A DNA stretch of 49,483 bases from Candidatus Syntropharchaeum sp. (GTDB lineage Archaea > Halobacteriota > Syntropharchaeia > Syntropharchaeales > Syntropharchaeaceae). The translations under genes were made by a program, and so were the position numbers. The DNA is taken from NCBI GenBank assembly GCA_026134025.1, contig JAOQII010000007.1, positions 1 to 49,483 of the forward strand. Direction: 5' to 3'. A model generated the notes under the pieces. That model had not been told where the DNA came from and made no database searches. It saw only the letters and a list, made by a program, of their open reading frames with translations. Within the stretch, counting starts at the first letter, position 1. Every line of letters begins with the position of its first letter. Of the stretch, positions 9,121-27,854 are shown in pieces.

Positions 9121-10341
9121 GTGCTGATGATGCGAAAAGTTGGAAAGAATTTCATTATTATATCTGCTGTGCTTATATTGCTCATCACACAGTTCTCAGT
9201 AGCACTGGCAGGAGATACAAAGGTGAGTGTGAGTGCACCCGATGAGGTAAAGCCGGGTGATGTATTCAGTGCGTATATCATGATAGAGGATGTTACGGAT
9301 TTTGTTGCAGGACAGTTTGATCTGAGCTTTGATTCGGATGTCATTACCGTGGTTGATGTTAAGAACGGTGAGATAGAGAGTCAGGATGTTCCGATTCTTG
9401 CATGGAACTTCAAACCTGGAACTGATAACTATCTCAGGGTTGTATATGATCTTCCAGGTGCTGATGGTGTGAGTGGTTCAGGATATCTTGCAGAGATCAT
9501 CTTTGAGGTTAAGGGTGCTGATGGGGATACAAGCAGCATAGAGATCTCAAATCTACAGCTCGGTAACAAGAATGCAGAGGAGATTACAGCAGACTGGTCG
9601 AGCGGTGAAGTTAAGGTGGATGCCTCTGCAACACCCCAGCCAACAACAATTCAGGAGTCAACCTATCAGGGAAGTTCTGGATATGCATTCAATGAAACTG
9701 ATACGAGCGGTGAGGCGACGACCACAACGAGTGAAAAAGTCACAAGATCGATTCCGGCTATTCAGGCAGGAACAAAGACCTCTGTTGTATTCAGTGATAT
9801 GGATATCTCGATGATCACACTTGATGTGGATCAGGATCTTTCCAATATTGAACTTTCGATACAACCTCGGGATCTGCCCGGAGAGATACCTGAACCTGAT
9901 GGAGTACTCTATAGCTCTTACGAGATAAAAGCAGAAGAGCTGGATGGAGCAGAAGTAACCGCAACGATCGATTTCAGGGTTTTAAAGTCATGGATTGAAG
10001 AAAACAGTATAGATAAGGCAACGATCACGCTGAACCGCTATCACAATGGTAAGTGGCAGGAACTTCCAACTTTCATGGCAGGAGAGGATGAGAATTTTGT
10101 CAACTACCAGGCAGAGAGTACTGGTTTCTCGTACTTTGCGATAACCGGGGAGGTGGTTACCGGATCAGAGATGACACCTGCATCAAGGGATGCCACATCA
10201 ACACCGATACCCACGACAACACCCCTGGAAGCAGATTCGACTGCTGGAACTGAGATAACGTGGGGTGTGATTATTGCAGCTATTCTTCTAACTGCTGTGA
10301 TCTGTGCGGCAGTATTCATATTCCTCTCAAAGAGAAAGTAG
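9121..10341 (+). CDS. Secreted, TM-anchored protein: one cohesin domain plus a PGF-pre-PGF-like domain
   Basis: Signal peptide; cohesin-type VSVSAPDEVKPGDVFSAYIMIEDVTDFVAGQFDLSFDSDVITVVDV...GSGYLAEIIFEVKG; C-term WGVIIAAILLTAVICAAVFIFLSKRK. Confidence 0.8.
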   Translation: MLMMRKVGKNFIIISAVLILLITQFSVALAGDTKVSVSAPDEVKPGDVFSAYIMIEDVTDFVAGQFDLSFDSDVITVVDVKNGEIESQDVPILAWNFKPGTDNYLRVVYDLPGADGVSGSGYLAEIIFEVKGADGDTSSIEISNLQLGNKNAEEITADWSSGEVKVDASATPQPTTIQESTYQGSSGYAFNETDTSGEATTTTSEKVTRSIPAIQAGTKTSVVFSDMDISMITLDVDQDLSNIELSIQPRDLPGEIPEPDGVLYSSYEIKAEELDGAEVTATIDFRVLKSWIEENSIDKATITLNRYHNGKWQELPTFMAGEDENFVNYQAESTGFSYFAITGEVVTGSEMTPASRDATSTPIPTTTPLEADSTAGTEITWGVIIAAILLTAVICAAVFIFLSKRK

Positions 10342-10450
10342 AGTGGCGAGGGTTTTTTGCTTTTTTATTTTTTATTATATGTAAACCCTGATATTTTTAA
10401 TGAGTATCTTATAATAGACAAAAATCAAAGACTTAATGTTACCAAATCCG

Positions 10451-10470
10451 AAAAGTTTATTAATCAATAA
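10451..10470 (+). promoter_or_regulatory. Promoter-like shared motif upstream of the three-cohesin/dockerin gene
   Basis: GTTACCAAATCCGAAAAGTTTATTAATCAATAA; core at 10451-10464. Confidence 0.6.
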
Positions 10471-10510
10471 GTCGATTCGAAATACATTTTAAGAGTTAGG
10501 AGGAATATAT

Positions 10511-12010
10511 GTGATAAAAGGTAAGATAGATGCAGTGGTGCTTGTGGCGGTTATGCTACTTGCGCCAGTGGCGTATGCAGGTATGATGGGGAGCGTTACA
10601 GCAACGAATATCCCAACGGTTACAGTCAGTGTGCCCGAGTATATCTCCGGAAGCTTCGAGGCAACGATCGAGGTGGAGGATGTTTCCAATCTCAACTCAG
10701 GGCAGTTTGACCTGACATTTGATCCAGATGTGATCAATGTGACAGATGTACTTGAGGGTGAGATCGATGGTGTGACGATCCCGATCGATATGTGGGAGTT
10801 TATGAGTTATGACAGGATAAGGGTGCTCTTCAAGTTACCCGATGTTGATACTGCGAGTGGATCAGGGTACCTTGCAAAGATCGGTTTCGAGGTTAAAGGG
10901 GAGAATGGTGATACAAGTGAGCTTGAGATCACAAAAGGTCTGCTGGTAGACTATGATGGAGAGGGAATGGATGCAAACTGGAATGGCGCTGCACTCACCG
11001 TTGCAATGGGTCCCTCAGTAACGGTCAATGCTCCAGCAGCAGCATCAGATAGCTTTGAGGTTCAGATCGAGATAGATGATGTGGAAGATCTCGATGCAGC
11101 CCAGTTTGATCTGAGCTTCAATCCGGATGTGCTTACGGTTGCATCTGTAAGTGATGGGGAGATAGATGGTAAAGATATACCAGTTCTAAACTGGAACCTT
11201 GATCCCAGTGATCCAGGTACCCTCAGAGTGGTGGTTGATCTTCCAGGTGTGAAAGGGGTGAGCGGTTCAGGACACCTTGCAAAGATCGAGTTCGATCCCA
11301 AAGGGGGTGGCGTAAGCAGGCTCGTGCTCAGCAATGTGATTCTGAGTGACATTAACGCAGATGAGATCAAGGGGCCACAGCTTGGAAGCTCAGAGGTCGA
11401 GGTCACGTTACCCGGTGGAACGGTCATATCAATCAGTGATGTTGCAGCCATAGGGACGATCACAGTACCGATTACAATCGAGAACGCCACGAATGTTGGC
11501 TCATGCGATCTGACTTTGAGTTATGATCCAGATATCGTGATTGTATCAGATGTTGGGGGAGGTGAGTTCGATAGCCTTCAGGCAAACCTTGAGGATGCAT
11601 CTGATGGTATCATCCGAATCGGTACATACCAGACATCAAGCCCGGGCCTCAATGGCGACGTCGTACTTGCAGAGGTTACCCTCATGACAATGGGTGATAT
11701 AGAGTCATCCACCACGCTTGATCTTGAGGTTACAACCCTGAAAGACGCAACGCCCGAATGCAACCCAATTCCATGCCTTGTCGAGGATGGAAGCTTCACC
11801 GTGCTTTTGAAGGGTGATGCAAACGGTGATGGCAGGATAGATATGGCAGATTGTATGTATCTTGCGAAGAATATCCTGGGTATCAGCGGTTTTGAGCAAA
11901 TTGTTGAGGCGGCTGTGGATGTCAACGGTGACGGTGAGATCGATATGGCAGATTGCATGTATCTCGCAAAACACATCCTCGATATTGCTGGGTTTGAGGA
12001 GCTTAAGTGA
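10511..12010 (+). CDS. Secreted adaptor-scaffoldin-like protein: three cohesin domains plus C-terminal dockerin, no C-terminal TM
   Basis: GTG start; cohesins ~10620-11010, ~11015-11410, ~11410-11808; dockerin 11813-12007 (GDANGDGRIDMADCMYLAKNILG...VDVNGDGEIDMADCMYLAKHILD). Confidence 0.82.
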   Translation: MIKGKIDAVVLVAVMLLAPVAYAGMMGSVTATNIPTVTVSVPEYISGSFEATIEVEDVSNLNSGQFDLTFDPDVINVTDVLEGEIDGVTIPIDMWEFMSYDRIRVLFKLPDVDTASGSGYLAKIGFEVKGENGDTSELEITKGLLVDYDGEGMDANWNGAALTVAMGPSVTVNAPAAASDSFEVQIEIDDVEDLDAAQFDLSFNPDVLTVASVSDGEIDGKDIPVLNWNLDPSDPGTLRVVVDLPGVKGVSGSGHLAKIEFDPKGGGVSRLVLSNVILSDINADEIKGPQLGSSEVEVTLPGGTVISISDVAAIGTITVPITIENATNVGSCDLTLSYDPDIVIVSDVGGGEFDSLQANLEDASDGIIRIGTYQTSSPGLNGDVVLAEVTLMTMGDIESSTTLDLEVTTLKDATPECNPIPCLVEDGSFTVLLKGDANGDGRIDMADCMYLAKNILGISGFEQIVEAAVDVNGDGEIDMADCMYLAKHILDIAGFEELK

Positions 12011-12017
12011 GGTGGTT

Positions 12018-13172
12018 ATGAAGATAGGAGCTTTCCTGTTTGCTATCTGCCTGCTGGGGTTATCTATAGGCACGGTGGCATCAGCAGGTGAGTGCAGGGT
12101 TGTGGTGGAAGATCTCAGAGTGACATCAGAGACTGTTGATCTTCCTGTGAGGATTATGGACGCAGAGAAGATCGGTTCATGCGACCTGATTCTCACCTTC
12201 AACCCATCCTCCTTCATTGTAACAGATATCACAGCAGGGGATTTTGATACGACCATCTGGAACCTTGAGACTGCAGACTCAGGTCAGGTGAGAATCGGTG
12301 GATTCCAGACCACGAGCGATGGACTTGATGGGGAGGTTCTCGTTGCGACGATCGTCTTCGAGCGTGTGGGGGAAGACTCAACTCCAATCAACATTCAGGT
12401 TAAAACCCTGAAGGATGCAACACCTGCCTGCAATCCGATCCCCTATACGATCGAGAACGGGAGACTATTCACAGGAGGATCCGACTACATCGGAAGCAGA
12501 GGGTACGGAGATCTTCCCATCTCAACCCACAGCATCAATACGACAGAGGTTACAAGACGGATTCCCCTGATCGAGGCTGGCAGGGAAGCTTCTGTGATCT
12601 TCAGGGATATGGTAATCTCGATGATAACGATCCTGACAGAAGAGGATCTGAGGGATATTGCACTATCTCTTCAGGAGTTTGATGGAAAGCCACCTGTTAC
12701 ATCTACTCCTGATGCTATTCCCTATGCCTACTTTGAGATAGAAGCGGATGGCTTGAACACAGCAGACGTAAAGGCAGGGATCAGTTTCAGGGTTCCACAG
12801 TCATGGATCGATGAGAACAAAATCGATGCGCAAACGATTCTACTTAACCGATACAATGGCGGATGGATCTCGCTTCCAACTGTCAGGATCGATGACGATG
12901 ATGAGTTTATTACATTCAAATCAGAGACGAGTGAGTTCTCCTGCTTTGTGATAACAGGTGAGAGGATGGAATCAACTGGACAGGTTGAATCATCAATCGA
13001 GGCTGACAGAAGCGATACAGTAACTTCCAGGCCAACACCGATGACAGGCGAGGCGGGGGCAACTCCTGCACAGCCAGCATCTTTGAGCTGGAGCTATGTG
13101 CTCCTTGCTGTAATCGGAACGATACTTGTATGTGGAGCGATATTCCTTGTGATCTCAAGAAGGAGGAGATAA
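12018..13172 (+). CDS. Secreted, TM-anchored protein: one cohesin-like domain plus PGF-pre-PGF-like domain
   Basis: MKIGAFLFAICLLGLSIGTVASA signal peptide (start internal to ORF 11862); MDAEKIGSCDLILTFNPSSFIVTDITAGDF; paralogous C-terminal half to the 9121 product; C-term WSYVLLAVIGTILVCGAIFLVISRRRR. Confidence 0.78.
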   Translation: MKIGAFLFAICLLGLSIGTVASAGECRVVVEDLRVTSETVDLPVRIMDAEKIGSCDLILTFNPSSFIVTDITAGDFDTTIWNLETADSGQVRIGGFQTTSDGLDGEVLVATIVFERVGEDSTPINIQVKTLKDATPACNPIPYTIENGRLFTGGSDYIGSRGYGDLPISTHSINTTEVTRRIPLIEAGREASVIFRDMVISMITILTEEDLRDIALSLQEFDGKPPVTSTPDAIPYAYFEIEADGLNTADVKAGISFRVPQSWIDENKIDAQTILLNRYNGGWISLPTVRIDDDDEFITFKSETSEFSCFVITGERMESTGQVESSIEADRSDTVTSRPTPMTGEAGATPAQPASLSWSYVLLAVIGTILVCGAIFLVISRRRR

Positions 13173-13179
13173 AACGATC

Positions 13180-13202
13180 CGGGCGGAATCCCGGTTTTTA
13201 TT
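13180..13202 (+). terminator. Hairpin plus T-tract
   Basis: CCGGG-CGGAAT-CCCGG followed by TTTTTA. Confidence 0.5.
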
Positions 13203-13233
13203 TGATTTGAATGAGGTAAGGAGGCTTTATTGA

Positions 13234-14499
13234 ATGAATCTGAATAAGATTGGTAGTTTAGCGATGGCAACTTTGATAGTCCTTGCGTCTGTTACGCTTC
13301 TGAGCATTGTGCCAGTATTAGCATCAGATGACTTCACATTGGGCATCTATGGCAATGCAAACCAGGATGATACGATCGATATGCGGGATGTCACAAAGAT
13401 CGCACGGATGATCTGCTGGCTCGAGGATGAGGTGGATTTAGCAGATGCAAAGTATGATGGGAATATAAATGTGCTTGATATAATCCAGACCGAGCTTGTT
13501 ATACTTGGAAGAGAGAAGGAGCTTACGGTTCTTGATTCTGCTGATAGGATAGTGACGGTGGAGATGCCGGTTGAGAGAGTGGTTCCCCTTCACATGCGCC
13601 ATGCAGGAACAGTCTGCGTGCTGGGTGCAGATGATGAGGTGGTTGGCGTAGACAGTACAGTGATCTCACGCGGAAGGCTTTTTCCGGAACTCAGCACGCT
13701 GCCTTCCATTGGGACAGTACGAGCACCTGACCTGGAGCAGATATTGACGCTCAACCCGGATCTGATCATTACCTTCACAAACTTCCCTGACCCCGCCTCT
13801 CTTGAGGATAAGCTACCTGACACGGTATCCGTTATCCGTATGGATCTCTCAAGGGCAGATGATATACCAGGGGAGATGAAGATGCTTGGCTACATACTCG
13901 GCAGAGTCTCTGTGGCAGATGATTATATTGCGTGGTATGATGGGTATGTAGATGCGGTGAAGGAAAGGGTCTCAGCAATTCCAGCAGAGGAACGGGTCAA
14001 CGTCTTTATGGAAAGGGAAAAGAAGACCGGGAAAGACCCACTTGTTCGATGGGCCTATGCATCAGGGACGGGATACACTGACCTATGTGCTGTGGCAGGT
14101 GGTATAAACATCGCGGAGGATTATATCGACTATCACGGCGATGTCGAGACGGAATGGGTGGTTGACCAGAATCCAGATGTTATCATCGGGTTATCCTACA
14201 AAGGCGGGTATGAGGTGGATGATGATACAGCGATGAGGGAGTATTACGAGGAGATAATCGGTCTGCCAGGCTTTGAGAACGTCACCGCGGTTAAAGATGA
14301 TCGAGTTCATATAATCTCAGGCGATTTCTCAATCGGGGCACAGCTACCCATCGGGATTGTAACGGTTGCAAAATGGCTCTATCCAGATAAATTCGAGGAT
14401 CTTGATCCGGATGAGATTCACGAGGAGTTTCTCACGGAGTTTATGCAAATAGAGTACAATCTTGACGAATGGGGCGTGTTTGTGTACCCTGATATCTGA
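13234..14499 (+). CDS. Secreted N-terminal dockerin fused to BtuF/FhuD-type (TroA fold) ABC substrate-binding protein
   Basis: Signal peptide; dockerin YGNANQDDTIDMRDVTKIARMICWLEDEVDLADAKYDGNINVLDIIQTELVILGRE; then VLDSADRIVTVEMPVERVV...LEQILTLNPDLIITF. Confidence 0.85.
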   Translation: MNLNKIGSLAMATLIVLASVTLLSIVPVLASDDFTLGIYGNANQDDTIDMRDVTKIARMICWLEDEVDLADAKYDGNINVLDIIQTELVILGREKELTVLDSADRIVTVEMPVERVVPLHMRHAGTVCVLGADDEVVGVDSTVISRGRLFPELSTLPSIGTVRAPDLEQILTLNPDLIITFTNFPDPASLEDKLPDTVSVIRMDLSRADDIPGEMKMLGYILGRVSVADDYIAWYDGYVDAVKERVSAIPAEERVNVFMEREKKTGKDPLVRWAYASGTGYTDLCAVAGGINIAEDYIDYHGDVETEWVVDQNPDVIIGLSYKGGYEVDDDTAMREYYEEIIGLPGFENVTAVKDDRVHIISGDFSIGAQLPIGIVTVAKWLYPDKFEDLDPDEIHEEFLTEFMQIEYNLDEWGVFVYPDI

Positions 14500-14540
14500 A
14501 AGATGCGATTAATTTGAATGAGGTAAGGAGGAATTATTGA

Positions 14541-16280
14541 ATGAATCTGACTAAGATTGGTGGTTTGGCGATGGTAACTTTGATGGTGCTATCGATTCTA
14601 CTGCCATTTACAGTTATGCCCGCGTCTGCAACACTCTTCGGTGATGCGAACACTGATACAACGATCGATATGCGTGATGTGACAAAGATCGCACGGATGA
14701 TCTGCTGGCTCGATCCAGAGACAGACGCTGCAGATGCAAATAACGATGGATCTGTGAATGTGCTTGATATAATTTATACAGAGCTTATCATCCTTGAACG
14801 AGTGCCGTTTCCGGGTGGAGAACTCAGGGCAGCGATGATATTTGGGCCCAAAAGTGATTCACTCGATCCAGCTTACTCGTGGACAGGATGGTATGTGAGA
14901 AAAGCCGGGATTTACGAGACACTCTTCAGCTATGACGAGAATATGAGACTTCAAGATGAGCTTGCAACAGGTTACAGCCAGATCAGCGATACCGAGTGGA
15001 GGATATACCTGCGAGACGGTGTCAGGTTCCATGACGGCACACCACTAAACGCTGATGCCGTGATCTACTCCCTTGAGCGGGTGATGGATCCTTCAAACAG
15101 CAGGCACACACAGTACGACTTTATTGAGTCTGTATCAAAGTTTGATGAACACACGGTGACAATCATAACAAAAGAACCTTATGCCCCAACGATCGCAAGT
15201 TTGACAGATCCTGTGGTCTCAATCGTGAGTCCCGCGGCAGATGATCTCGCTCATAACCCTGTAGGTACAGGTCCGTTCAAGTTTGTCGACCATGAACAGG
15301 GTGTGAGTCTAACTGTTACAAGAAACGATGACTACTGGGGCGGGGCTGTCAAGCTCGAGGGTGCGATCTTCTACTATGTGAGCGATCCATTGACAAGGTC
15401 ACTCATGCTCGAGGGTGATGATGTCGATATCGCACGGGGTATACCACAGAGTGAGTACAATGAGATCGAGGATGATCCCGATCTCGAGGTTCTGACCAAA
15501 GAGACGCTTCGGACATACTTCATGTATGTGAATACGAGGAAAGCACCGCTTGATGATGTGAGGGTTAGACAGGCTATAAACTATTGCATCGATCGTGAAG
15601 AGATCGTTGATACAGCACTTGAAGGTGTCGGTGGCACGCCTGCAAAGAGCATCTTCCCATCGATTTTACCATGGTCTGCAAATGACGAGCTGGAGGGATA
15701 CACGTTCAATCAGGCAGAAGCACTATCGCTACTTGAAGCGGCTGGTATTACAGACACCGATGGCGATGGCTGGCTTGATTATGATGGTGAGACCTTTGAG
15801 CTTACGATAAAGACCTACACCAAGCGACCTGAGCTCCAGCCAACTGCTGAGGTGATGGTGAGCCAGCTTGAGGATATCGGGATCAAGGCAAGTGTGATTA
15901 TCCTTGAAACAGGTGCTCTGAAGGCTGATATGAATGACGGTAACTTCGATCTTGCGCTCTATGCATGGGGTACCGCCCCGACAGGAGATCCGGACTACTT
16001 CCTCTCGTACCACTTTGAGTCAACAGGAAAGTATGCGGGATGGACAGGTTATTCAAACCCTGATGTGGATAACTGGATAGAGCTTGGACGGAGAACGATG
16101 AACGAGGACGATCGATATGAGTACTATGCCAATGTACAGGAGCAGATACTCGAGGACTCGCCAGAGATCTTTGTATTCTATCAGAACGAACTTGTAGGAG
16201 AGAATACACGGGTAATCGGCTATGAGATATTCCCGAACGAGATATCTTTCCTGACAAAAGATATGTACATTGGAAAATAG
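14541..16280 (+). CDS. Secreted N-terminal dockerin fused to nickel/peptide (NikA/DppA-type) substrate-binding protein
   Basis: Dockerin FGDANTDTTIDMRDVTKIARMICWLDPETDAADANNDGSVNVLDIIYTELIILERV, then SBP_bac_5-like SLDPAYSWTGWYVRKAGIYETLF...RIYLRDGVRFHDGTPLNADAVIYSLERV. Confidence 0.85.
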   Translation: MNLTKIGGLAMVTLMVLSILLPFTVMPASATLFGDANTDTTIDMRDVTKIARMICWLDPETDAADANNDGSVNVLDIIYTELIILERVPFPGGELRAAMIFGPKSDSLDPAYSWTGWYVRKAGIYETLFSYDENMRLQDELATGYSQISDTEWRIYLRDGVRFHDGTPLNADAVIYSLERVMDPSNSRHTQYDFIESVSKFDEHTVTIITKEPYAPTIASLTDPVVSIVSPAADDLAHNPVGTGPFKFVDHEQGVSLTVTRNDDYWGGAVKLEGAIFYYVSDPLTRSLMLEGDDVDIARGIPQSEYNEIEDDPDLEVLTKETLRTYFMYVNTRKAPLDDVRVRQAINYCIDREEIVDTALEGVGGTPAKSIFPSILPWSANDELEGYTFNQAEALSLLEAAGITDTDGDGWLDYDGETFELTIKTYTKRPELQPTAEVMVSQLEDIGIKASVIILETGALKADMNDGNFDLALYAWGTAPTGDPDYFLSYHFESTGKYAGWTGYSNPDVDNWIELGRRTMNEDDRYEYYANVQEQILEDSPEIFVFYQNELVGENTRVIGYEIFPNEISFLTKDMYIGK

Positions 16281-16298
16281 AAGAAATGGTTTGATCAG

Positions 16299-16342
16299 AG
16301 CAAAATGGCTTTATGCAGAGCTGTTTTGCTTTACCATTTTTA
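16299..16342 (+). terminator. Hairpin followed by T-rich tract
   Basis: AGCAAAATGGCT...AGCTGTTTTGCT stem then TTACCATTTTTATTT. Confidence 0.4.
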
Positions 16343-16366
16343 TTTAATCTTCAATCTGGTGTTCTT

Positions 16367-17122
16367 ATGGATGTAAAAGGCGTTATTGCAGACTACTGGG
16401 ATAAAAGAAGCCATACATACCACAACGGTTTAAATAAGCTTCGGGCAGATGAGCATTCGATCTGGGTGGGTGCACTTAAAGATGTCTTGAATGGTGGTGA
16501 GCATCTGAAGATCCTCGATCTCGGAACAGGTCCTGGTTTTCTGGCACTGATCCTCGCAGAGTTAGGGCATGAGGTGACAGGTCTTGATATCTCGGAAGGC
16601 ATGCTTGAGAAAGCGAGATACAATGCCAGAACAAGAAATTTAATGATAGATTTCTGCCTGGCTGATGCAGAGAACCTTCCGTTTCAGGATGAAGACTTTG
16701 ACCTTGTTGTGAGTAAATACCTCCTCTGGACGTTACCGCATCCGGAAAGAGCGGTGGACGAATGGAACCGTGTATTAAAGCCAGGTGGTAAGGTTGTTTT
16801 AATCGATGGGGTCTGGTTTGATCCCGCCATAAATAGGTGGCTTCGCCGCAACCTCTCAACCCTTCTCGCAATCGTTACTGAACGGAGAAATCCATGGAGA
16901 TTTAAACGGTACTATAACCCGATAAAAGATAGACTGCCGTTTTACAGCGGTGTGAAGCCTCACGAACTTTACACCCTCTTCAATGAGGCTGGACTTACAA
17001 ATGTATCACTCAAACCCCTGAGCGAGGTGCAGGAATTTTATATGAACTGTGGATCGCTGTCTCGAAAGATAATACATAAAGAACCAAATTTTATTTTAAC
17101 AGGTGAAAAAATAAGGTGTTAG
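16367..17122 (+). CDS. Class I SAM-dependent methyltransferase
   Basis: ILDLGTGPGFLALILAELGHEVTGLDISEGMLEKAR; start taken at internal ATG 16367. Confidence 0.8.
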   Translation: MDVKGVIADYWDKRSHTYHNGLNKLRADEHSIWVGALKDVLNGGEHLKILDLGTGPGFLALILAELGHEVTGLDISEGMLEKARYNARTRNLMIDFCLADAENLPFQDEDFDLVVSKYLLWTLPHPERAVDEWNRVLKPGGKVVLIDGVWFDPAINRWLRRNLSTLLAIVTERRNPWRFKRYYNPIKDRLPFYSGVKPHELYTLFNEAGLTNVSLKPLSEVQEFYMNCGSLSRKIIHKEPNFILTGEKIRC

Positions 17123-18070
17123 ATGCTGTGGTATATACTTAGAAGAGTCCTGCTCCTTCTTCCTACCCTGTTTTTAGTATCTATCATCAGCTTCTCCCTG
17201 ATATACATAACTCCTGGGGATCCTGCAGAGATACTTCTAACAGGTCCGGGAGGGGGAGCAGATCCGAAAGCTGTCGAGGAGTTCAGGGTCAGGATGGGGC
17301 TTGATCAACCTTTCTATATCCAATACCTGAGATGGCTAAATGATGTTCTGCATGGAGACCTTGGATATTCCTATATGACAGATCAACCTGTAGCCGATAC
17401 GGTTTTTGGTAGTTTTCTCTCCACCCTGAAGCTTGCAGCGGTGAGTATGGTGATAGCACTTCTTATCGCAATTCCATTCGGTATCCTCGCCGCGATGAAG
17501 CATAACACGATAATAGACGATCTTAGCAGGTTGACAGCACTTATTGGTGTCTCTATCCCGAATTTCTGGCAGGGCTTTCTCCTTATTCTGATATTCTCCA
17601 TATATCTTGGCTGGTTTCCGGTTGCAGGATATGGCGATGGAGGAGATCTTAAACATATAATCCTGCCTGCAGTTACACTTGGAACAAGCTCTGCCGCGGT
17701 TACGATGAGATTGATGCGATCAAGCATGTTTGAGGCACTGGAACAGGATTACATAATAACTGCCAGGGCAAAAGGGTTGCACGAGAGGGTTGTTATTGGA
17801 AAACATGCGTTAAAAAATGCGTTAATTCCGGTTGTAACCATGATAGGTTTGAACGCTGGATTTCTCCTGAATGGATCTCCGATCATTGAGGTGATATTCG
17901 CCTGGCCTGGAATCGGAAGACTTGTTGTATCCTCAATATACCAGCGAGATTATCCGATGATACAGGGCTCGATTCTCTTTGTTGCGATCATATTTCTTAC
18001 TGTAAATTTTATTGTCGATATATTATACACATACATAAATCCGAGGATAAGATATGAGGCAGGTGATTAG
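17123..18070 (+). CDS. Nickel/peptide ABC transporter permease (DppB/NikB-type)
   Basis: MLWYILRRVLLLLPTLFLVSIISFSLIYITPGDPAE...ARAKGLHERVVIGKHALKNALIPVVTMIGL. Confidence 0.9.
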   Translation: MLWYILRRVLLLLPTLFLVSIISFSLIYITPGDPAEILLTGPGGGADPKAVEEFRVRMGLDQPFYIQYLRWLNDVLHGDLGYSYMTDQPVADTVFGSFLSTLKLAAVSMVIALLIAIPFGILAAMKHNTIIDDLSRLTALIGVSIPNFWQGFLLILIFSIYLGWFPVAGYGDGGDLKHIILPAVTLGTSSAAVTMRLMRSSMFEALEQDYIITARAKGLHERVVIGKHALKNALIPVVTMIGLNAGFLLNGSPIIEVIFAWPGIGRLVVSSIYQRDYPMIQGSILFVAIIFLTVNFIVDILYTYINPRIRYEAGD

Positions 18071-18884
18071 GAATCCAGGCATCCTCTTTGGAACTGCTGT
18101 AATCGTCTTTCTAATCTTTGTAGCCGTATTTGCAGGTTTTATCGCACCCCACGATCCAACAGAGACACATCTGAAAGATAGGTTGAGTTCACCATCATCA
18201 GAGTATCCGCTTGGAACCGATCATCTTGGCAGGTGTATCTTAAGCAGAATCATCTATGGTACAAGGATCTCGCTTTCTGTTGGTGTTCTTGTGATAGGTG
18301 CATCGCTTCTTCTCGGGCTTCTTCTTGGTACGATTGCAGGCTACTATGGTGGGATAATCGATGATCTGATCATGCGCATCGTCGATGGATTTCTGGCGTT
18401 TCCGAGTATGTTTCTTGCACTGGCTATAGCCGGCGCTCTTGGCCCCAGTCTGACCAATTTAATGATCGCACTCATCGTTGTGGAGTGGACAAGCTATGCG
18501 AGGGTTGTGAGGGGTTCTATACTTTCTATAAAAGATCAGATGTTTGTAGAGGCTGCAAGAGGACTTGGTGCAGGGGATATTTATCTTCTTACCCGTCACG
18601 TCCTTCCAAACACCCTCTCACCGCTTATCGTGATGGCAACGCTCGGGGTTGGCTACATCATACTCACAGCAGCGGGCTTGAGCTTCTTAGGATTGGGTGT
18701 ACAGCCACCAACGCCAGAATGGGGGGCGATGTTAAATGACGGGCGCCTCTTCATGCGAAGTGCACCGCATATCATGATCTTCCCAGGGCTTGCAATAATG
18801 ATAACGGTTCTTGCTTTCAACTTCCTTGGAGACGGGCTGAGGGATGTGATGGATCCAAGGTTGAAGCAGGAAGTGATAGAATAG
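18054..18884 (+). CDS. Nickel/peptide ABC transporter permease (DppC/NikC-type)
   Basis: PLGTDHLGRCILSRIIYGTRISLSVG...EAARGLGAGDIYLLTRHVLPNTLSPLIV...GLSFLGLGVQPPTPEWGAML. Confidence 0.9.
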   Translation: MRQVIRNPGILFGTAVIVFLIFVAVFAGFIAPHDPTETHLKDRLSSPSSEYPLGTDHLGRCILSRIIYGTRISLSVGVLVIGASLLLGLLLGTIAGYYGGIIDDLIMRIVDGFLAFPSMFLALAIAGALGPSLTNLMIALIVVEWTSYARVVRGSILSIKDQMFVEAARGLGAGDIYLLTRHVLPNTLSPLIVMATLGVGYIILTAAGLSFLGLGVQPPTPEWGAMLNDGRLFMRSAPHIMIFPGLAIMITVLAFNFLGDGLRDVMDPRLKQEVIE

Positions 18885-20340: not shown

Positions 20341-22071
20341 ATGAGAAAATTGCTGGTCTTTCTGATGCTGGCAGCACTTCTTGCAAGTGGGTTTGCAGGG
20401 ATGCCGGCAGCAGCAGAAGATAAGAAGGTCTTGAAGATCGAAGGAGGAGATTACGGTTACCCATCCCCCTTCACATTCTATTCAAGAGGTCCGGGGTACA
20501 TCAGGATGAGCCTCATCTTCGATACCTTGACATGGAAGGATGATGAGGAGATAATACCGTGGCTTGCAAAGAGCTGGAAGTCTGAGAATGGCGGTACAAA
20601 ATGGACGCTGTATCTCGAGGATGATGTGAGGTGGCATGATGGCGAGCCGCTAACGGCAGATGATGTGAAGTTCACATACGAGTATATCAAGGATCATAGT
20701 GGAAGCCCTCTCTTCAAATGGTTCAGCGTCCTGAACTATATGGATCATGTGGAGGCTCCCAATGATCGAACGGTTGTTGTAACCTTAACAGATCCGTTGC
20801 CATCCTTCTTGACCGACTTTGCTGGCTGCATCCCGATAATTCCGGAGCACATCTGGAAGGATGTTTCAGATCCAACCAGATTCACAGATCCGGAAGCGGT
20901 TATCGGAAGTGGACCTTTCAAGCTTGCTGAGTACAACAAGGCTGAAGGTTACTATCTCTATGAGGCAAATGAGGACTACTTCAAGGGAGTGCCCCTCGTT
21001 GATGAGCTGATTCTCCTTGAGGTGGGTGATCCCGCACTTGCACTAAGCGCCGGGGAGATCGATGAGGCGAGCTTCTGGGGTAGTGAGATCGATGCGGTTG
21101 AGACGTTTGAAGCCGATCCAAACTTTGAGGTGATATCTGGTCCAAGCTTCTGGGTGCTGAAGACGATCTTCAACTGCGAGAAGTACCCGACAAATATACC
21201 GGATTTCAGAAGAGCAATTGCATACGGGATAGACAGGGGTGAAATCATCGATCAGGTTGTGCACGGTGGCGCGATAGTTGCAAACACAGGTATACTTCAT
21301 CCGGACTCAAGCTGGTATATGCCAGGCCTTCCGGATTATGCGAAGAATGATGCAGTGGCAAATCAACTCCTCGATGATCTTGGGTTCATAGATACAGATG
21401 GTGATGGTATAAGGGAGTATCCATCTGGTGAAGATCTTGAGTTTGAGCTTTTGACAGGAGACAGGTTCGCACGTGAGGCAGAACTTATACAGGAGCAGCT
21501 TGAAGCGATCGGGATAAAGACGACCGTCAAGGCGATGAGTACAAAGACGCTTGATGCAATCCTCAAGGAGGGTAACTTCTACATTGCGGTATCAGGACAT
21601 GGAGGGATCGCAAATCCAAACCTGCTGGAGACACCAAACTGGCCGGGGGATACGTATCATAACGACACTTACGATTCGATCTTTCTGGAGCAGGAGACTG
21701 AGATGAACCATGCAAAGCGAAAGGATCTTGTGAATCAACTGCAGAAAACGATCGCAAATGATTTACCTGTCTACACGCTCTACCATCCGTTGATATGGTC
21801 TGTTTACAATCCGGATAAGCTTGACAGGTGGTTCTATACACTGAATGGCGTCGCAACAGGCATACCGATTGAGATGAACAAGCTCATATTCTTTGCAAGG
21901 TTCGGCGATGCAAACGAGGACGGTGATATCGATATGCGGGATGTGACAAAGATCGCACGGATGATCTGCTGGCTCGATCCAGAGACAGACGCTGCAGATG
22001 CGAACCGTGATGATAAGCTTAATGTGCTCGATATAATCTATACAGAGCTTATCATACTTGGAAGGGTATAG
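20341..22071 (+). CDS. Nickel/peptide-type substrate-binding protein with C-terminal dockerin
   Basis: Signal peptide; SBP_bac_5-like WTLYLEDDVRWHDGEPLTADDVKFTYEYI; C-term FGDANEDGDIDMRDVTKIARMICWLDPETDAADANRDDKLNVLDIIYTELIILGRV*. Confidence 0.85.
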   Translation: MRKLLVFLMLAALLASGFAGMPAAAEDKKVLKIEGGDYGYPSPFTFYSRGPGYIRMSLIFDTLTWKDDEEIIPWLAKSWKSENGGTKWTLYLEDDVRWHDGEPLTADDVKFTYEYIKDHSGSPLFKWFSVLNYMDHVEAPNDRTVVVTLTDPLPSFLTDFAGCIPIIPEHIWKDVSDPTRFTDPEAVIGSGPFKLAEYNKAEGYYLYEANEDYFKGVPLVDELILLEVGDPALALSAGEIDEASFWGSEIDAVETFEADPNFEVISGPSFWVLKTIFNCEKYPTNIPDFRRAIAYGIDRGEIIDQVVHGGAIVANTGILHPDSSWYMPGLPDYAKNDAVANQLLDDLGFIDTDGDGIREYPSGEDLEFELLTGDRFAREAELIQEQLEAIGIKTTVKAMSTKTLDAILKEGNFYIAVSGHGGIANPNLLETPNWPGDTYHNDTYDSIFLEQETEMNHAKRKDLVNQLQKTIANDLPVYTLYHPLIWSVYNPDKLDRWFYTLNGVATGIPIEMNKLIFFARFGDANEDGDIDMRDVTKIARMICWLDPETDAADANRDDKLNVLDIIYTELIILGRV

Positions 22072-22082
22072 CTTCAGGAGAG

Positions 22083-22117
22083 GGTAAATAAAACCCTTTT
22101 CTTCATTTTTTCAGGAT
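22083..22117 (+). terminator. Small hairpin plus T-rich tract
   Basis: AGGGT-AAATAAA-ACCCT then TTTCTTCATTTTTT; followed directly by a permease gene, so likely partial read-through. Confidence 0.3.
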
Positions 22118-22124
22118 AATAACG

Positions 22125-23105
22125 ATGCACCACCTGACAAAGATCACCGCGTATATTCTTATCATCTTTGTAGCCATCTCAATCAATTTTGCGCTTCCAA
22201 GGATGATGCCGGGCGATCCGATAACCTCCCTGACAGATGATCCAACGACAGGGATGCCGGTGATCATGGATGAGGATATAAAAGAAGAGATTCGCTCATA
22301 CTACGGGCTTGACAAACCCATATCTGAACAATATACAGACTACCTGAAGGATATTCTGAAATGCGATCTCGGGTGGTCGATATACTACAACGCCCCGGTT
22401 GCTGAGGTGATCTTTGAGCGATTGAAGTGGACTTTGCTTCTTGTTGGAACGTCCACACTGATCTATATGATTCTGGGAATCTTTCTCGGAGCGGTATCGG
22501 CATGGAAGAGGGGTGAGAGAGGCGATCTTGGCCTTCTTGTATCGGTCTTATCTATCGGTTCATTTCCCTCATTCTTCCTCGCGATGCTCTTTATCATTCT
22601 GTTCGGGGTAAAGCTTGACATCTTTCCAATATTTGGTGCAACCACACCGTTTATGGAGTATTCAAGCACTTTTGATGCGTTCAAGGATGTTCTGTATCAC
22701 CTGATTCTCCCGGCATCAACCCTTGTTTTAACCTCGATCGATGGACCCTATCTCCTGATGCGAAACTCGATGCTTGGTGTACTTGGAGAAGACTATATCG
22801 TGACCGCAAGGGCGAAAGGACTCACAGAGTGGGCAATACTCAAGGATCATGCGATAAAGAATGCTCTGCTTCCAATCACCACGGTCATCGCTATTCGGAT
22901 GGGTTTTATGATATCCGGGGCGATATTTGTTGAGACCGTCTTTGCGTATCCTGGTATTGGGAAGTTACTCTATGATGCGGTCTCTTTCTCTGACTATCCG
23001 CTCCTGCAGGGTGCATTCCTGATCATAACTCTGATAATAATTGCTGCAAATTTTATTGCGGATATGACCTATTTATATCTGGATCCAAGGGTGAAACATG
23101 GATGA
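22125..23105 (+). CDS. Nickel/peptide ABC transporter permease (DppB-type)
   Basis: NFALPRMMPGDPITSL...ARAKGLTEWAILKDHAIKNALLPITTVIA. Confidence 0.9.
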   Translation: MHHLTKITAYILIIFVAISINFALPRMMPGDPITSLTDDPTTGMPVIMDEDIKEEIRSYYGLDKPISEQYTDYLKDILKCDLGWSIYYNAPVAEVIFERLKWTLLLVGTSTLIYMILGIFLGAVSAWKRGERGDLGLLVSVLSIGSFPSFFLAMLFIILFGVKLDIFPIFGATTPFMEYSSTFDAFKDVLYHLILPASTLVLTSIDGPYLLMRNSMLGVLGEDYIVTARAKGLTEWAILKDHAIKNALLPITTVIAIRMGFMISGAIFVETVFAYPGIGKLLYDAVSFSDYPLLQGAFLIITLIIIAANFIADMTYLYLDPRVKHG

Positions 23106-23953
23106 GGGGAGCTCTCAAATCCGGGAATGTTTTTTGTAAAAACCGAATAGGCGTTACAGGACTTGGTATCCTGAGTGTTTTTATCCTGACCGCGATCTTT
23201 GCGCCATTTCTCGCACCCTATGATCCGTGTGAGATGTTTGAGCCGATGGCACCTCCTGATTCTCAGCACGTACTTGGAACAAATGACATAGGTCAGGATA
23301 TCTGGAGCGAACTGATCTATGCCAGCAGAATCTCACTATTTATCGCCTTCACGACATCCATCATAGCAACGTTCATCGGGACTTTATCTGGCCTTTTTTC
23401 GGGCTACTATGAGCGTTTCGGGTTTTTTGTGATGCGGGTCGTGGATCTCTTCCTTGCGCTGCCAAGGCTCCCACTGATCATCATACTTGCGGTATTTATG
23501 CCAACGAGCATCTGGAATCTTATTATTATATTTGTCTTATTTGGATGGCCCATCACGACACGTATCATACGATCAGAGGTTTTAACGCTTCGAACCCGAC
23601 CATATATCGATTCTGAAAGGATGATGGGTGCGGGAGATCTTTATATTCTGGGGCGTCACATTCTTCCAAATATCTTTCCACTGGTTGTTGTCCAGTTTGT
23701 GATGGAGGCACGGCATGTGATACTTGCAGAGGCGGGTTTGAGTTTCCTGGGCCTTGGTGATCCAACCTCAAAGAGCTGGGGGATGATGCTCCACTACGCG
23801 TTCGAGTATCCGACAATCTTCATATCAGAGGTATGGAAATGGTGGATGCTGCCTCCAGGTCTCTGCATCGTTGTTGTGATACTTGCACTTGTATTTGTTG
23901 GTTTTGCACTTGAAGAGATATTAAATCCAAGGTTGAGGAGAGAGATAGTATGA
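23102..23953 (+). CDS. Nickel/peptide ABC transporter permease (DppC-type)
   Basis: HVLGTNDIGQDIWSELIYASRISLF...ERMMGAGDLYILGRHILPNIFPLVVVQ...GLSFLGLGDPTSKSWGMML. Confidence 0.9.
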   Translation: MRGALKSGNVFCKNRIGVTGLGILSVFILTAIFAPFLAPYDPCEMFEPMAPPDSQHVLGTNDIGQDIWSELIYASRISLFIAFTTSIIATFIGTLSGLFSGYYERFGFFVMRVVDLFLALPRLPLIIILAVFMPTSIWNLIIIFVLFGWPITTRIIRSEVLTLRTRPYIDSERMMGAGDLYILGRHILPNIFPLVVVQFVMEARHVILAEAGLSFLGLGDPTSKSWGMMLHYAFEYPTIFISEVWKWWMLPPGLCIVVVILALVFVGFALEEILNPRLRREIV

Positions 23954-24885
23954 ATCTCCTTAAAATCAAAGCTCTCAGGGTCTACTTCCCAACCGATGAC
24001 GGCATCGTGAAAGCGGTGGATGGGGTTGATCTAAATATAAAAAGGGAAGAGATACTGGGGCTTATCGGAGAGACGGGGTGTGGAAAGACGGTTCTTGGCA
24101 TGTCGATCATGCGATTGATCCAGTCCACCACGCTAACAGATGGTGAGATCATCTACAAAGACAGAGATCTTCTCTCCTTGAGCGATGATGAGATGCGAAA
24201 GATCAGGGGAGGTGAGATCGCAATGGTGCTCCAGAACCCGATGACCTCTTTGAATCCAGTCATAAGGGTTGGTGAACAGATCGCAGAGACGATCAGACTC
24301 CATCAGGGACTGGATAAAAAAGCTGCAAGAAAGCGTGTCATCGAGATGCTGCGTGATGTGAGGATTCCAGATCCTGAAAAATCGGTCGATTCATATCCTC
24401 ATCAGCTAAGCGGTGGGATGCAGGAACGGGTGATGATCGCGATGGCACTTGCATCCGATCCTGAGCTTATCATCGCAGATGAGCCGACGAAGGGGCTGGA
24501 TGTGACGGTTAAGAGAGAGATAATCAGGCTTATGAAGGAAGTGACAGCTAAAAGATCGATGCTATTCATAACACACGATCTCGGGGCTGCAGCAGAGATC
24601 TGTGATAATATTGCTGTGATGTATGCAGGAGAGCTTCTTGAACATGCCAGTGTAGATTCTATATTCAGTGAGCCGCTGCACCCTTACTCAGAAGGACTAC
24701 TGAACTCTCTTCCAGAAAGAGGTCTAAAACCGATAAGAGGAATCAGTCCGTCGCTTATCGATACGCCACAGGGATGCAGGTTTCACCCGAGATGTGATTA
24801 TGCGATGGAGATATGCAGGGAAAAGCATCCTGAGATGGTTAAATTAGAGGATGGACGTGCTGTGAGGTGTTTCCTGTATGCTTGA
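23950..24885 (+). CDS. ABC transporter ATP-binding protein (DppD/NikD-type)
   Basis: GETGCGKTVLGMSIM, QLSGGMQERVMIAMALASDPELIIADEPT, C-terminal CRFHPRCDYAMEIC. Confidence 0.92.
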   Translation: MNLLKIKALRVYFPTDDGIVKAVDGVDLNIKREEILGLIGETGCGKTVLGMSIMRLIQSTTLTDGEIIYKDRDLLSLSDDEMRKIRGGEIAMVLQNPMTSLNPVIRVGEQIAETIRLHQGLDKKAARKRVIEMLRDVRIPDPEKSVDSYPHQLSGGMQERVMIAMALASDPELIIADEPTKGLDVTVKREIIRLMKEVTAKRSMLFITHDLGAAAEICDNIAVMYAGELLEHASVDSIFSEPLHPYSEGLLNSLPERGLKPIRGISPSLIDTPQGCRFHPRCDYAMEICREKHPEMVKLEDGRAVRCFLYA

Positions 24886-25639
24886 AGTTAAAGGCCTCAG
24901 CAAGTATTTTTCTTCAGGAATATTAAGAAAGCGTTACACAAAAGCCGTGGATGATGTAAATTTCAGTATAAAGAGGGGTGAGACGCTCGGGCTTGTGGGA
25001 GAGAGTGGATGTGGTAAAACAACGCTCGGGAGATCCATCCTGCGGCTCATTGAGCCAACCGCTGGAAAAGTCCTCTTCGATGGTATAGATATACTAAAAC
25101 TGAATAAGAAAGAGCTTAGAACTTTCAGACCCAGGATGCAGATGATCTTTCAGGATCCCGATGCATCGCTGAATCCCAGAATGAAGATAAGAGAAAGTAT
25201 TGCAGAGCCATTGAAGCTTCAGAGGGTGGAAAAATGTGAGATTGAGGGAAAGGTTCAGGAACTTATAGAAAGGGTAGGATTGAGTCCTGAGCATGCAAAC
25301 CGCTATCCACACCAGTTGAGCGGTGGACAGAATCAGAGGGTCGTTCTTGCAAGGGTACTCGCTTTAAATCCTGATTTTATCGTTGCAGATGAGCCTACTT
25401 CCGCTTTAGATGTCTCTGTTCAGGCACAGATCTTGAATCTGATACAGGATCTAAAACGTGAGCTTAACCTGACACTTCTTTTTATATCGCATGATCTTGA
25501 GGTTGTGCGGTATATGAGCGACAGGATCGCGGTGATGTATGGTGGTAAGATCGTTGAGATGGGGGATGTGGAGGATATATTCAATGATGCAAAGCACCCT
25601 TATACAAAGCTGCTTGTGTCAGGAAAGGAGGTGGTATGA
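24878..25639 (+). CDS. ABC transporter ATP-binding protein (DppF/NikE-type)
   Basis: GESGCGKTTLGRSILRLIEPT, QLSGGQNQRVVLARVLALNPDFIVADEPTSALD. Confidence 0.92.
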   Translation: MLEVKGLSKYFSSGILRKRYTKAVDDVNFSIKRGETLGLVGESGCGKTTLGRSILRLIEPTAGKVLFDGIDILKLNKKELRTFRPRMQMIFQDPDASLNPRMKIRESIAEPLKLQRVEKCEIEGKVQELIERVGLSPEHANRYPHQLSGGQNQRVVLARVLALNPDFIVADEPTSALDVSVQAQILNLIQDLKRELNLTLLFISHDLEVVRYMSDRIAVMYGGKIVEMGDVEDIFNDAKHPYTKLLVSGKEVV

Positions 25640-26457
25640 TCAGAGCCATAGACTGGAACAAACGCTGGATGGAAGCGATGGAGAATAGTTCATTGAGAAC
25701 GTGTCGTGAGAATATGACAGCGTTCTGGAACAGAAGAGCCAGGCGATATAACGAAGCGGTGAAACGTAATAATCGTTCGATGGAGATGATGTCGAAGTTA
25801 GATATCGATCCAGCGTACACTGTACTTGATATTGGTGCAGGACCTGGCACGCTAACGATTCCACTTGCAAAGCGGGTGAAACATGTAACGGTCGTAGAGC
25901 CCTCCAGTGGGATGCTTACCTGTCTGAAGGAGAATGCAAGAAGTGAGGGATTGAAAAATATAACCTGCATAAACAAGAGATGGGAGGATATTGTCCCTGG
26001 AGTCGATCTTGATGAGCACGATCTTGTGATAGCATCCTACTCGCTCGCGATGCTGGATATGGAAGAAGCGCTCTCGAAGATGAACAGGGTTGCAAGACGA
26101 TCTGTTTATCTATTTGACTTTGCAGGAGGTCGTATGAAGGGCTACAGTGAACTCTGGCCAAGGCTGTACGGTGAGGAATTTCGAGCAAGGCCTGATTACA
26201 TCTATCTCTACAATATCCTCTATGAGATGGGGATCTATGCAAACGTTGAGATCTCAAAGACCGAGTTCAAAGAGCGATTTTCAAGCCTAAATGAGGCAGT
26301 GGAGGAATGGAAGGAGAATCTTGGTGTATCAACGCCAGAAGCAGAGGAAGTGATAGGAGCCTATCTCTCAGCGAATCTGGTTGAAGAAGACGGTGCGTTC
26401 TACTTGAAGAATGAAATAAAGTCTGCGATGATCTGGTGGAAGAAAACAGACGGATAA
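25636..26457 (+). CDS. Class I SAM-dependent methyltransferase
   Basis: YTVLDIGAGPGTLTIPLAKRVKHVTVVEPSSGMLTCLKENA. Confidence 0.8.
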   Translation: MIRAIDWNKRWMEAMENSSLRTCRENMTAFWNRRARRYNEAVKRNNRSMEMMSKLDIDPAYTVLDIGAGPGTLTIPLAKRVKHVTVVEPSSGMLTCLKENARSEGLKNITCINKRWEDIVPGVDLDEHDLVIASYSLAMLDMEEALSKMNRVARRSVYLFDFAGGRMKGYSELWPRLYGEEFRARPDYIYLYNILYEMGIYANVEISKTEFKERFSSLNEAVEEWKENLGVSTPEAEEVIGAYLSANLVEEDGAFYLKNEIKSAMIWWKKTDG

Positions 26458-26508
26458 AATACTGATCTTGAAAAAAGGTAGTTTTACTGAACAATTTTTG
26501 ATCTTATC

Positions 26509-26541
26509 TAATATTACTAATATCAAAAACTTTATTAATCA
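26509..26541 (+). promoter_or_regulatory. Promoter-like shared motif upstream of dockerin-SBP gene 26589
   Basis: TAATATTACTAATATCAAAAACTTTATTAATCA. Confidence 0.6.
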
Positions 26542-26588
26542 AGAACCTGATTCTATTTTAACCTTAAGAGGAATGGAGGAATTACTGA

Positions 26589-27854
26589 ATGAATCTGAAT
26601 AAGATTGGTAGTTTAGCGATGGCAACTTTGATGGCCCTTGCGTCTGTTACGCTTCTGAGCATTGTGCCAGTATCGGCATCAGATGACTTCACATTGGGCA
26701 TCTATGGCAATGCAAACCAGGATGATACAATCGATATGCGGGATGTCACAAAGATCGCGCGTATGATCTGCTGGCTCGAGGATGAGGTGGATTTAGCAGA
26801 TGCAAAGTATGATGGGAATGTGAATGTGCTTGATATAATCCAGACCGAGCTTGTTATACTTGGAAGAGAGAAGGAGTTAACGGTTCTTGATTCTGCTGGG
26901 AGGACTGTTACGATACCCAGGCCCATCGAGAGGATCGTCGTATTCAATTCTGAGACGGTTGAGACGATGCGATCACTCAGAGCAACTGAAAAAATAGTCG
27001 GCGTTGGTAAATACACGATTAAGGATGGGATCTTCTTCCCTGAGTTTGCCGACTACCCAAATGTAGGGTCAGTATGGTCACCAGACTATGAAGGTGTGGT
27101 AAGCTGCAACCCGGATCTCGTATTCCTCTACGGGACGTGCTCTGTGAGCTACTGTGATGAGATTCAGAATAAGCTTGAGGAACTCGATCCAGCGATTACA
27201 GTGGTTCGTCTCGACTGCTACAAGCCAGAAAGCTATGTACGTGAAGTGGCAGAGCTTGGATACATTCTCAATCATGTGAGTGATGCCGATAACTTCATCA
27301 GATTTTACGATGGTTACATGGAAACGATCAGGGATAGGGTCAAGGATATCCCAGAGAATGAACGGCCAGAGGTCTACTTTGAGGCGTGGAGGCCATATCA
27401 CACCGCAGGTAGTGGATCTGGATGGCACGAGAAGGTCGTGTATGCCGGAGGTAAGAATATCTTTGACGATCTTAGCGGTTATCCCGACGTGGATCAGGAA
27501 GAGGTCGTGGAGCGGGATCCTGAGATTATCATCAGAGCCGCAAAGGATGAGGGGGGTTATGACACGAGTGACGTAAGTGAGCTTTCAGAGATATGGGATG
27601 AGATCATGGCTCGGCCTGAGCTTGCAAACGTCACCGCAGTGCAGAATCAAACGGTCTACATAATCGCAAACCCGATTCTCGGTGGTGTGAGGCACTTCAT
27701 AGGTATCGGATACATGGCAAAGTGGTTCTACCCTGATCTCTTCACCGATCTGGATCCAGAAACGGCTCATCGAGAGTACCTAACAGAGTTCCAGGGGCTT
27801 GATGAGAGCCTTGTCGATAATGGAGTGTTCGTCTATCCACCACAGGAAAGCTGA
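26589..27854 (+). CDS. Secreted N-terminal dockerin fused to BtuF/FhuD-type substrate-binding protein
   Basis: Signal peptide plus dockerin almost identical to 13234 product; VLDSAGRTVTIPRPIERIVVFNSETVETMRSLRATEKIVGVGKY; SCNPDLVFLYG. Confidence 0.85.
   Translation: MNLNKIGSLAMATLMALASVTLLSIVPVSASDDFTLGIYGNANQDDTIDMRDVTKIARMICWLEDEVDLADAKYDGNVNVLDIIQTELVILGREKELTVLDSAGRTVTIPRPIERIVVFNSETVETMRSLRATEKIVGVGKYTIKDGIFFPEFADYPNVGSVWSPDYEGVVSCNPDLVFLYGTCSVSYCDEIQNKLEELDPAITVVRLDCYKPESYVREVAELGYILNHVSDADNFIRFYDGYMETIRDRVKDIPENERPEVYFEAWRPYHTAGSGSGWHEKVVYAGGKNIFDDLSGYPDVDQEEVVERDPEIIIRAAKDEGGYDTSDVSELSEIWDEIMARPELANVTAVQNQTVYIIANPILGGVRHFIGIGYMAKWFYPDLFTDLDPETAHREYLTEFQGLDESLVDNGVFVYPPQES

Follow-up and report, generated by a model that had tools for sequence, protein, structure and literature searches.

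Dockerin-bearing solute receptors beside cohesin anchors in a Syntropharchaeum-like archaeon: a putative plug-in handle, homogenised within genomes and joined to exchanged receptor domains

Introduction

To our knowledge, no function has so far been firmly assigned to cohesins and dockerins outside cellulosomes, and the present work concerns a gene cluster in which solute receptors carry dockerins and adjoin cohesin proteins, within a 49,483-nt stretch of DNA (hereafter the window; Candidatus Syntropharchaeum sp., contig JAOQII010000007.1 of assembly GCA_026134025.1). The closest described systems are those of anaerobic methanotrophic (ANME) archaea, where the common dockerin proteins are binding components of ATP-binding cassette (ABC) transporters (NikA/OppA, TroA), and as many as five cohesins can accompany a dockerin in one protein, attachment to the cell surface being proposed (Chadwick et al. 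2022, PMC9012536). Cohesin and dockerin domain counts in ANME have also been given (Timmers et al. 2017, PMC5244752), and the subject has been extended to cohesin/dockerin proteins of the bacterial partners and to adhesion (PMC10553843). The original prediction for the window held that dockerins tether secreted receptors to the envelope through cohesin proteins, as a swappable set over shared permeases, and professed ignorance of whether such an arrangement had been described; its central idea is, in outline, already in print for ANME archaea, as a proposal.

The genome holding the window (G000, a 98-contig draft) was compared with its sister genome G001 (the sole relative from the same genus) and with more distant relatives, among them the Methanophagales (ANME-1) genome CONS3730B06UFb1 (G013, in the large family f3 and in the same class as G000). 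G000 and G001 contain four McrA copies each, and we infer that G000 represents a Syntropharchaeum-like alkane oxidiser, whose genus is itself probably not ANME. Below, cohesins are divided into class A and class B and dockerins into receptor-type (T) and scaffoldin-type (S), 'handle' or cassette denotes the signal peptide plus dockerin of a receptor gene, and L-numbers denote loci from G000, G001 and relatives.

Cohesin anchors and dockerin-bearing receptors

Seven open reading frames (ORFs), all on the forward strand and all present where the original prediction had placed them, form the core of the cluster: three cohesin genes (starting at 9121, 10511 and 12018) followed by four receptor genes (13234, 14541, 20341 and 26589). 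Its conservation in G001 indicates more than a chance grouping. The cohesin proteins hold five cohesin domains, each above the Pfam cut-off. The first membrane anchor (9121..10341) comprises a signal peptide, one class-A cohesin (~9220-9618; Pfam Cohesin 4.7e-13), a PGF-pre-PGF domain (NCBIfam TIGR04213, 2.5e-25) and a C-terminal membrane helix, and the second (12018..13172) a signal peptide, one class-B cohesin (~12081-12470; Pfam Cohesin 2.3e-5, 25.1 bits at a cut-off of 24.1; own profile 4.8e-28), the same PGF-pre-PGF domain (7.8e-24) and a C-terminal membrane helix, the hydrophobic end in both spanning ~22 residues followed by K/R. The scaffoldin between them (10511..12010) carries a signal peptide, three cohesins of classes A (10619-11002), A (11018-11401) and B (11429-11803) (Pfam Cohesin x3, 1.2e-30) and an S-type dockerin (11810-11980; Dockerin_1 4.8e-13, also found by our own hidden Markov model, HMM), and is devoid of a membrane anchor. 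The predicted pair of secreted cohesin proteins with a transmembrane (TM) end, and the predicted unanchored protein with three cohesins and a dockerin, were thus borne out. No PGF-CTERM match was found among the window proteins by Pfam or NCBIfam, so that 9121 and 12018, despite their TM helix and PGF-pre-PGF domain, do not qualify as PGF-CTERM/archaeosortase substrates; the motif is present in the relatives' loci L081 and L106. A phmmer search of 9121 against the PDB gave no match at E<=0.01.

All four receptors combine a signal peptide and a Pfam binding-protein domain with permease and ATPase genes nearby, which qualifies them as ABC-importer binding proteins. Receptor 1 (13234..14499; dockerin 13351-13509) and receptor 4 (26589..27854; dockerin 26706-26864) belong to Peripla_BP_2 (Pfam 3.2e-25 and 6.9e-28), and receptor 2 (14541..16280; dockerin 14640-14795; NikA/OppA-like) and receptor 3 (20341..22071; dockerin 21904-22064) to SBP_bac_5 (Pfam 1.1e-95 and 2.4e-77). 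In 13234, 14541 and 26589 the dockerin occupies the N-terminal side, whereas 20341 carries it at the C-terminus, a point absent from the original prediction. Whereas Pfam recovered the cohesins, both receptor families and the dockerins of 10511 and 14541 (Dockerin_1 5.2e-5) above cut-off, the Dockerin_1 matches of 20341 (0.0025), 13234 (0.28) and 26589 (0.27) fell below it and had to be rescued by profile and fold. Our own dockerin HMM matched 20341 at 8.4e-22 and 26589 at 6.1e-23, and a profile built from eleven Peripla_BP_2-receptor modules had a Clostridium thermocellum dockerin as its top PDB match (1ohz_B, E=0.0018), all 15 of its 15 matches being dockerin-bearing or cellulosomal chains. 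Furthermore, AlphaFold2 modelled the 13234 module (73 sequences) as two loop-helix units (predicted local distance difference test, pLDDT, 93), and with this model Foldseek ranks 1-31 were all dockerins, mainly out of cohesin-dockerin complexes (probability 0.99-1.00 for ranks 1-21), at E-values (0.03-0.2) that are modest because the domain is small. The full 13234 receptor minus its signal peptide was predicted with pLDDT 94 and a predicted template modelling score (pTM) of 0.91. The suspicion, raised by Pfam E-values of ~0.28, that 13234 and 26589 have no true dockerin was rejected on profile, fold and Foldseek grounds, and by sequence and model the sub-threshold receptor dockerins are genuine dockerin modules.

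Inspection of the four window receptors revealed no lipobox and no membrane segment at the C-terminus, in agreement with the prediction that they are secreted with a dockerin and without an anchor of their own. In a count over ten genomes from the class, 0/52 complete dockerin receptors vs 7/27 non-dockerin receptors had either a lipobox or a membrane helix at the C-terminus (p=3e-4), the seven including two lipoboxes ending in GCM (L153, L157) that were recognised by hand. Dockerin and membrane anchor are not strict alternatives, as many non-dockerin receptors also have neither lipobox nor C-terminal membrane helix, and some of these possess uncleaved N-terminal helices or another EF-hand-like stretch. 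In relatives (L166, L178, L195, L197 and L204), such a different short EF-hand-like stretch (e.g. DGDKIVSEGELV or EKSEVIDAIQDYF) replaces the dockerin in other binding proteins of the same families and is perhaps a second attachment module.

Pairing of cohesin and dockerin classes

Outside the window cluster, cohesin genes located <=500 bp from a receptor-type dockerin gene were of class A (like 9121 and scaffoldin cohesins 1 and 2) in 16/16 cases, and those beside a scaffoldin-type dockerin were of class B (like scaffoldin cohesin 3 and 12018) in 5/5, none being mixed (Fisher p=5e-5, shared ancestry uncorrected). In all 13 of the 13 loci containing a cohesin, the nearest one lay <=1 kb from the receptors, mostly <200 bp, and all tested genomes of the window's lineage contain cohesins, often immediately beside receptors (in G005, cohesin-negative by Pfam, our profile picked up a class-A-like cohesin at the end of a contig, and L130 is likewise profile-positive; both count as cohesin-bearing in the dockerin tree described below). 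The ANME-3 loci (L106, L118), in which a single class-A cohesin anchor stands 3-5 bp before the receptor genes (PGF-CTERM being recognised in L106), represent in our view a minimal two-part version. The wiring predicted from these sequences is that receptor dockerins bind class A and the scaffoldin dockerin class B, a specific proposition that can be tested within only seven proteins. Elsewhere in G000, a two-gene pair (L047:8454-9865) encodes a short protein with a class-B cohesin and no obvious anchor and, next to it, a secreted protein with a scaffoldin-type dockerin. The G001 orthologue of the scaffoldin (L052:11754-13655) holds four cohesins vs three in the window, so that cohesin number differs between sister species; its cohesins 1 and 2 share 83% DNA identity.

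Taken together, these observations make it rather probable, in our judgement, that the dockerin is a plug-in, non-covalent handle for the local class-A cohesin. Receptors secreted without their own membrane anchor would clip via their dockerins onto a class-A cohesin, either the one in TM anchor 9121 or the first or second of scaffoldin 10511, and the S-type dockerin of the scaffoldin would in turn clip onto a class-B cohesin, either the one in TM anchor 12018 or the last cohesin of a further scaffoldin, which would generate chains. A changeable set of binding proteins would in this manner be held under the surface (S-) layer beside a small number of ABC permeases used in common (Opp/Dpp types within the window and FecCD types elsewhere in G000), offering anaerobic alkane- and methane-cycling archaea a way to change receptors without changing permeases.

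A uniform handle with exchanged receptor domains

Among Peripla_BP_2 paralogs of G000 and G001, handles share 94-98% nucleotide identity vs ~50% in the receptor domains, and at 4-fold degenerate sites handles are ~80-95% identical and receptors, being saturated, 20-40%. Signal-peptide DNA alone is 96-100% identical among paralogs, beyond what protein selection would require. The same pattern was found in the fourteen paralogs of the ANME-1 genome G013 (4-fold identity 0.69 in the handle vs 0.34 in the receptor) and in G020, in weaker form in ANME-2c and Methan_01, and with little or only moderate handle excess (at few sites) in the Methanosaeta/Methanothrix arrays. Within the window, the handle of receptor 4 (26589..26865) is 97% identical to 13234-13510. 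Furthermore, in comparison to G001, receptor 1 joins the upstream sequence of the first receptor (substrate-binding protein 1, SBP1) to the receptor domain of the second (SBP2) at a switch point within 13200..13539 (diagnostic sites 168:3 upstream, 15:349 downstream), and receptor 4 joins the upstream sequence of the third (SBP3) to the receptor domain of the fifth (SBP5), with the switch in its handle (123:3 upstream, 3:367 downstream of the module). Elsewhere in the portions of G000 that were searched, we did not detect the G001 DNA skipped in this way, which comprises two further receptors and a receptor accompanied by FecCD permease and ATPase genes; one G000 FecCD compared with the skipped FecCD is only 64% identical, and the switch points may reflect either deletion in G000 or gain in G001.

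Exchange is apparent across lineages too: receptors of G000/G001 are 80-81% identical to those of ANME-2c-type genomes while the dockerins are 57-62% identical, and the corresponding values are 86% vs 57% between G001 and ANME-1 G013 and 81% vs 58% between ANME-3 and ANME-2c; pairs with the same dockerin type have dockerins 79-98% identical. Foreign receptors with a local dockerin are the pattern expected if an incoming receptor must take a handle that fits the local cohesin, and, with the homogenised handle, they are evolutionary evidence of a need for the dockerin to fit its local partner. Given that paralogous arrays share ancestry by nature, one could attribute the uniform handle to simple descent from recent duplications, with fast divergence of receptor domains and recombination unneeded. 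We find this scarcely credible: receptor 4-fold sites are saturated (~0.34 identical) and those of handle and signal peptide are not, orthologous receptors of G000 and G001 evolve slowly (96% nucleotide identity), and the cross-lineage combination of receptors at 80-86% with dockerins at 57-62% cannot come from fast receptors.

We lean slightly towards the view that the handle belongs to the genome, where recombination keeps it uniform to fit the local class-A cohesin, and that receptor domains travel from gene to gene, from genome to genome and even between distant lineages, acquiring the resident handle once they arrive. This module occurs also in a cohesin-less clade (see below). The cassette would be kept uniform through gene conversion or crossover because every receptor must, under this proposal, fit the same local cohesin, and the same recombination would insert, delete and swap receptor domains, some of them gained from other lineages. 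A literature search for work tying dockerins to gene conversion returned no relevant match. One receptor gene of G001 (L053:15338-16658), its reading frame broken at the 5' end, has a signal peptide and dockerin that resemble ANME-2c-type modules (NEDDTINMQDVTYTELIILEY) and not the local type, and is possibly a decaying immigrant with a foreign handle.

The dockerin module in a clade without cohesins

A genome scan showed that receptors fused to dockerins occur also in Methanothrix/Methanosaeta, Methanospirillum stamsii, Methanocellaceae, Methan_01, a Bathyarchaeota bin and Methanolliviera. In a tree of the dockerin module (few columns), the cohesin-bearing genomes form one clade (99/92) and the cohesin-less ones the other, with the cohesin-less Methanolliviera branching at the base of the cohesin-bearing side. 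This clean split means that the module is older than the cohesin partnership or that the partnership was lost in one clade. Since relatives possess the fusion without cohesin, carrying a dockerin module is not in itself proof of tethering to a cohesin, and some further role, or a partner that has escaped recognition, must exist for it; the sister clade without cohesins provides a natural control. The Methanothrix/Methanosaeta loci L135 and L138 contain 4-6 receptor-dockerin fusions per array in genomes without detectable cohesin, and lie (by eye) beside nitrogenase-like and CobN-like genes, respectively.

Several points weigh against the reading of the dockerin as a cohesin handle. Pfam cohesins are absent from 8/8 tested genomes in or at the edge of the other dockerin clade, and the cohesin profile derived from the cluster gave only sub-significant matches, in two of them. 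The 16 A:T pairs derive from ~11 genomes and the 5 B:S pairs from 5, and are not phylogenetically independent, and class pairing by adjacency bears only indirectly on the predicted binding. The Peripla_BP_2 dockerins have K at position 3 of the second calcium loop. Both switch points, moreover, could be assembly joins at a 290-bp repeat in the G000 draft, a worry tempered by the fact that the missing FecCD was not found elsewhere in that assembly. The receptor dockerin might instead be an older calcium-binding module with a cohesin-independent task (docking to the permease, to other receptors or to an S-layer or sheath, or stabilising a secreted protein), which in cohesin-bearing lineages was later recruited as, or merely resembles, a cohesin ligand. 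The eight genomes, the division of the module tree by cohesin presence and the basal Methanolliviera speak for such a history, as does the fact that Methanothrix and Methanospirillum, both sheathed (see PMC11576556 for the distribution of sheaths), are among the genomes without cohesin, although part of ANME-1 has sheaths as well. On the other hand, the universal presence of cohesins in the tested genomes of the window's lineage, often beside receptors, the strict class pairing and the adoption of the local module by foreign receptors argue against it, and we regard it as possible but unlikely. The predicted tether and swappable receptor scaffold finds partial backing in handle exchange, adjacency, class pairing and the lack of an own anchor, and is left unproven by relatives that carry the same fusion without cohesin; likewise, related genomes do show dockerin-receptor fusions beside cohesin genes, but eight have the fusion and no convincing cohesin.

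Permeases, cargo and neighbouring genes

Peripla_BP_2 matches exceed FecCD matches (22 vs ~6-7 in G013; 25 vs ~7-9 in G020), consistent with the predicted sharing of permeases. No FecCD permease lies inside the receptor cluster, and two full-length copies are found elsewhere in G000. Interspersed with the receptor genes are Opp/Dpp permeases, ABC ATPases, S-adenosylmethionine (SAM) methyltransferases and a small P-loop ATPase; these include a DppB/DppC-type permease pair (17123..18884, genes 17123-18070 and 18054-18884; Pfam BPD_transp_1 1.3e-44 and 1.1e-33, OppC_N) and a second permease pair (22125, 23102) with two ABC ATPases (23950, 24878) (22125..25639; BPD_transp_1, ABC_tran, oligo_HPY), all on the forward strand. 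The receptor families (Fe-siderophore/B12-type Peripla_BP_2 and Ni/peptide SBP_bac_5), the downstream CobN/ChlID-like chelatases and the nitrogenase-like genes of the G013 array suggest that the cargo may consist of metal chelates, corrinoids or tetrapyrroles, and nickel or peptides.

It has also to be considered whether the dockerin receptors, rather than serving import, contact the bacterial partner on the cell surface or in the matrix as an adhesion or partner-recognition complex. ANME and their sulfate-reducing bacterial (SRB) partners both encode cohesin/dockerin proteins, highly expressed in ANME-2c/Seep-SRB2 (PMC10553843), and several adhesin-like cohesin proteins exist elsewhere in G000. 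The dockerin cargo of the cluster, however, consists of binding-protein domains next to permeases and ATPases, and ~145/179 distinct dockerin ORFs (in loci selected for dockerins) carry a binding-protein domain, which renders an adhesive role very improbable.

Directly before the cluster lies a gene for a predicted S-layer-like protein (6690-8975; weak NCBIfam match), and immediately downstream of the receptors a ChlID-like AAA/VWA protein and a CobN-type chelatase (window 29403-35125); in G001 (L058), FecCD and ATPase genes and an Mcr/Acr-like operon come after the chelatase genes. In G013 (L080/L081), ~15 dockerin-Peripla_BP_2 genes occupy one 32-kb array together with NifH and NifD/K relatives (nitrogenase-like), SAM methyltransferases and one FecCD/ATPase pair, with a cohesin anchor and a four-cohesin protein at one end.

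Comparison with known systems

With the clostridial cellulosome (type I/II, CipA, OlpB/SdbA anchors) the locus shares a multi-cohesin scaffoldin whose own dockerin is of a different class and could attach to a separate anchor, dockerins on the secreted cargo, and the dockerin fold. It differs in that its cargo consists of solute receptors (SBP_bac_5, Peripla_BP_2) and not hydrolases, in that its anchors are TM or PGF-type and not S-layer homology (SLH), in that no carbohydrate-binding module was found by Pfam in 9121, 10511 and 12018, and in that the scaffoldin's dockerin is predicted to bind the very class to which the scaffoldin's last cohesin belongs. The predicted label 'cellulosome-like' fits the scaffoldin with its own dockerin and, in view of the cargo and the missing carbohydrate-binding module, holds as an analogy only. 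With Archaeoglobus fulgidus the locus shares an archaeal family of cohesin sequences, cohesin 3 of the scaffoldin being matched to structure 2xdh (E=9.7e-4); the cohesin/dockerin proteins of that species are presumably not arranged as receptors carried on a scaffold. Archaeal binding proteins anchored by PGF-CTERM or lipobox belong to the same receptor families and occur in the same genomes, but have within the receptor chain the anchor that is absent from dockerin receptors. The ANME systems, as represented in the available part of Chadwick et al. (2022, PMC9012536), stand closest in that a dockerin on a NikA/OppA-like binding protein and a multi-cohesin protein with a dockerin coexist in one genome, as they do in G000; relative to that published idea, the present locus and its relatives add two cohesin and two dockerin classes paired at gene level into a predicted wiring, a homogenised and exchanged handle, and a cohesin-less sister clade.

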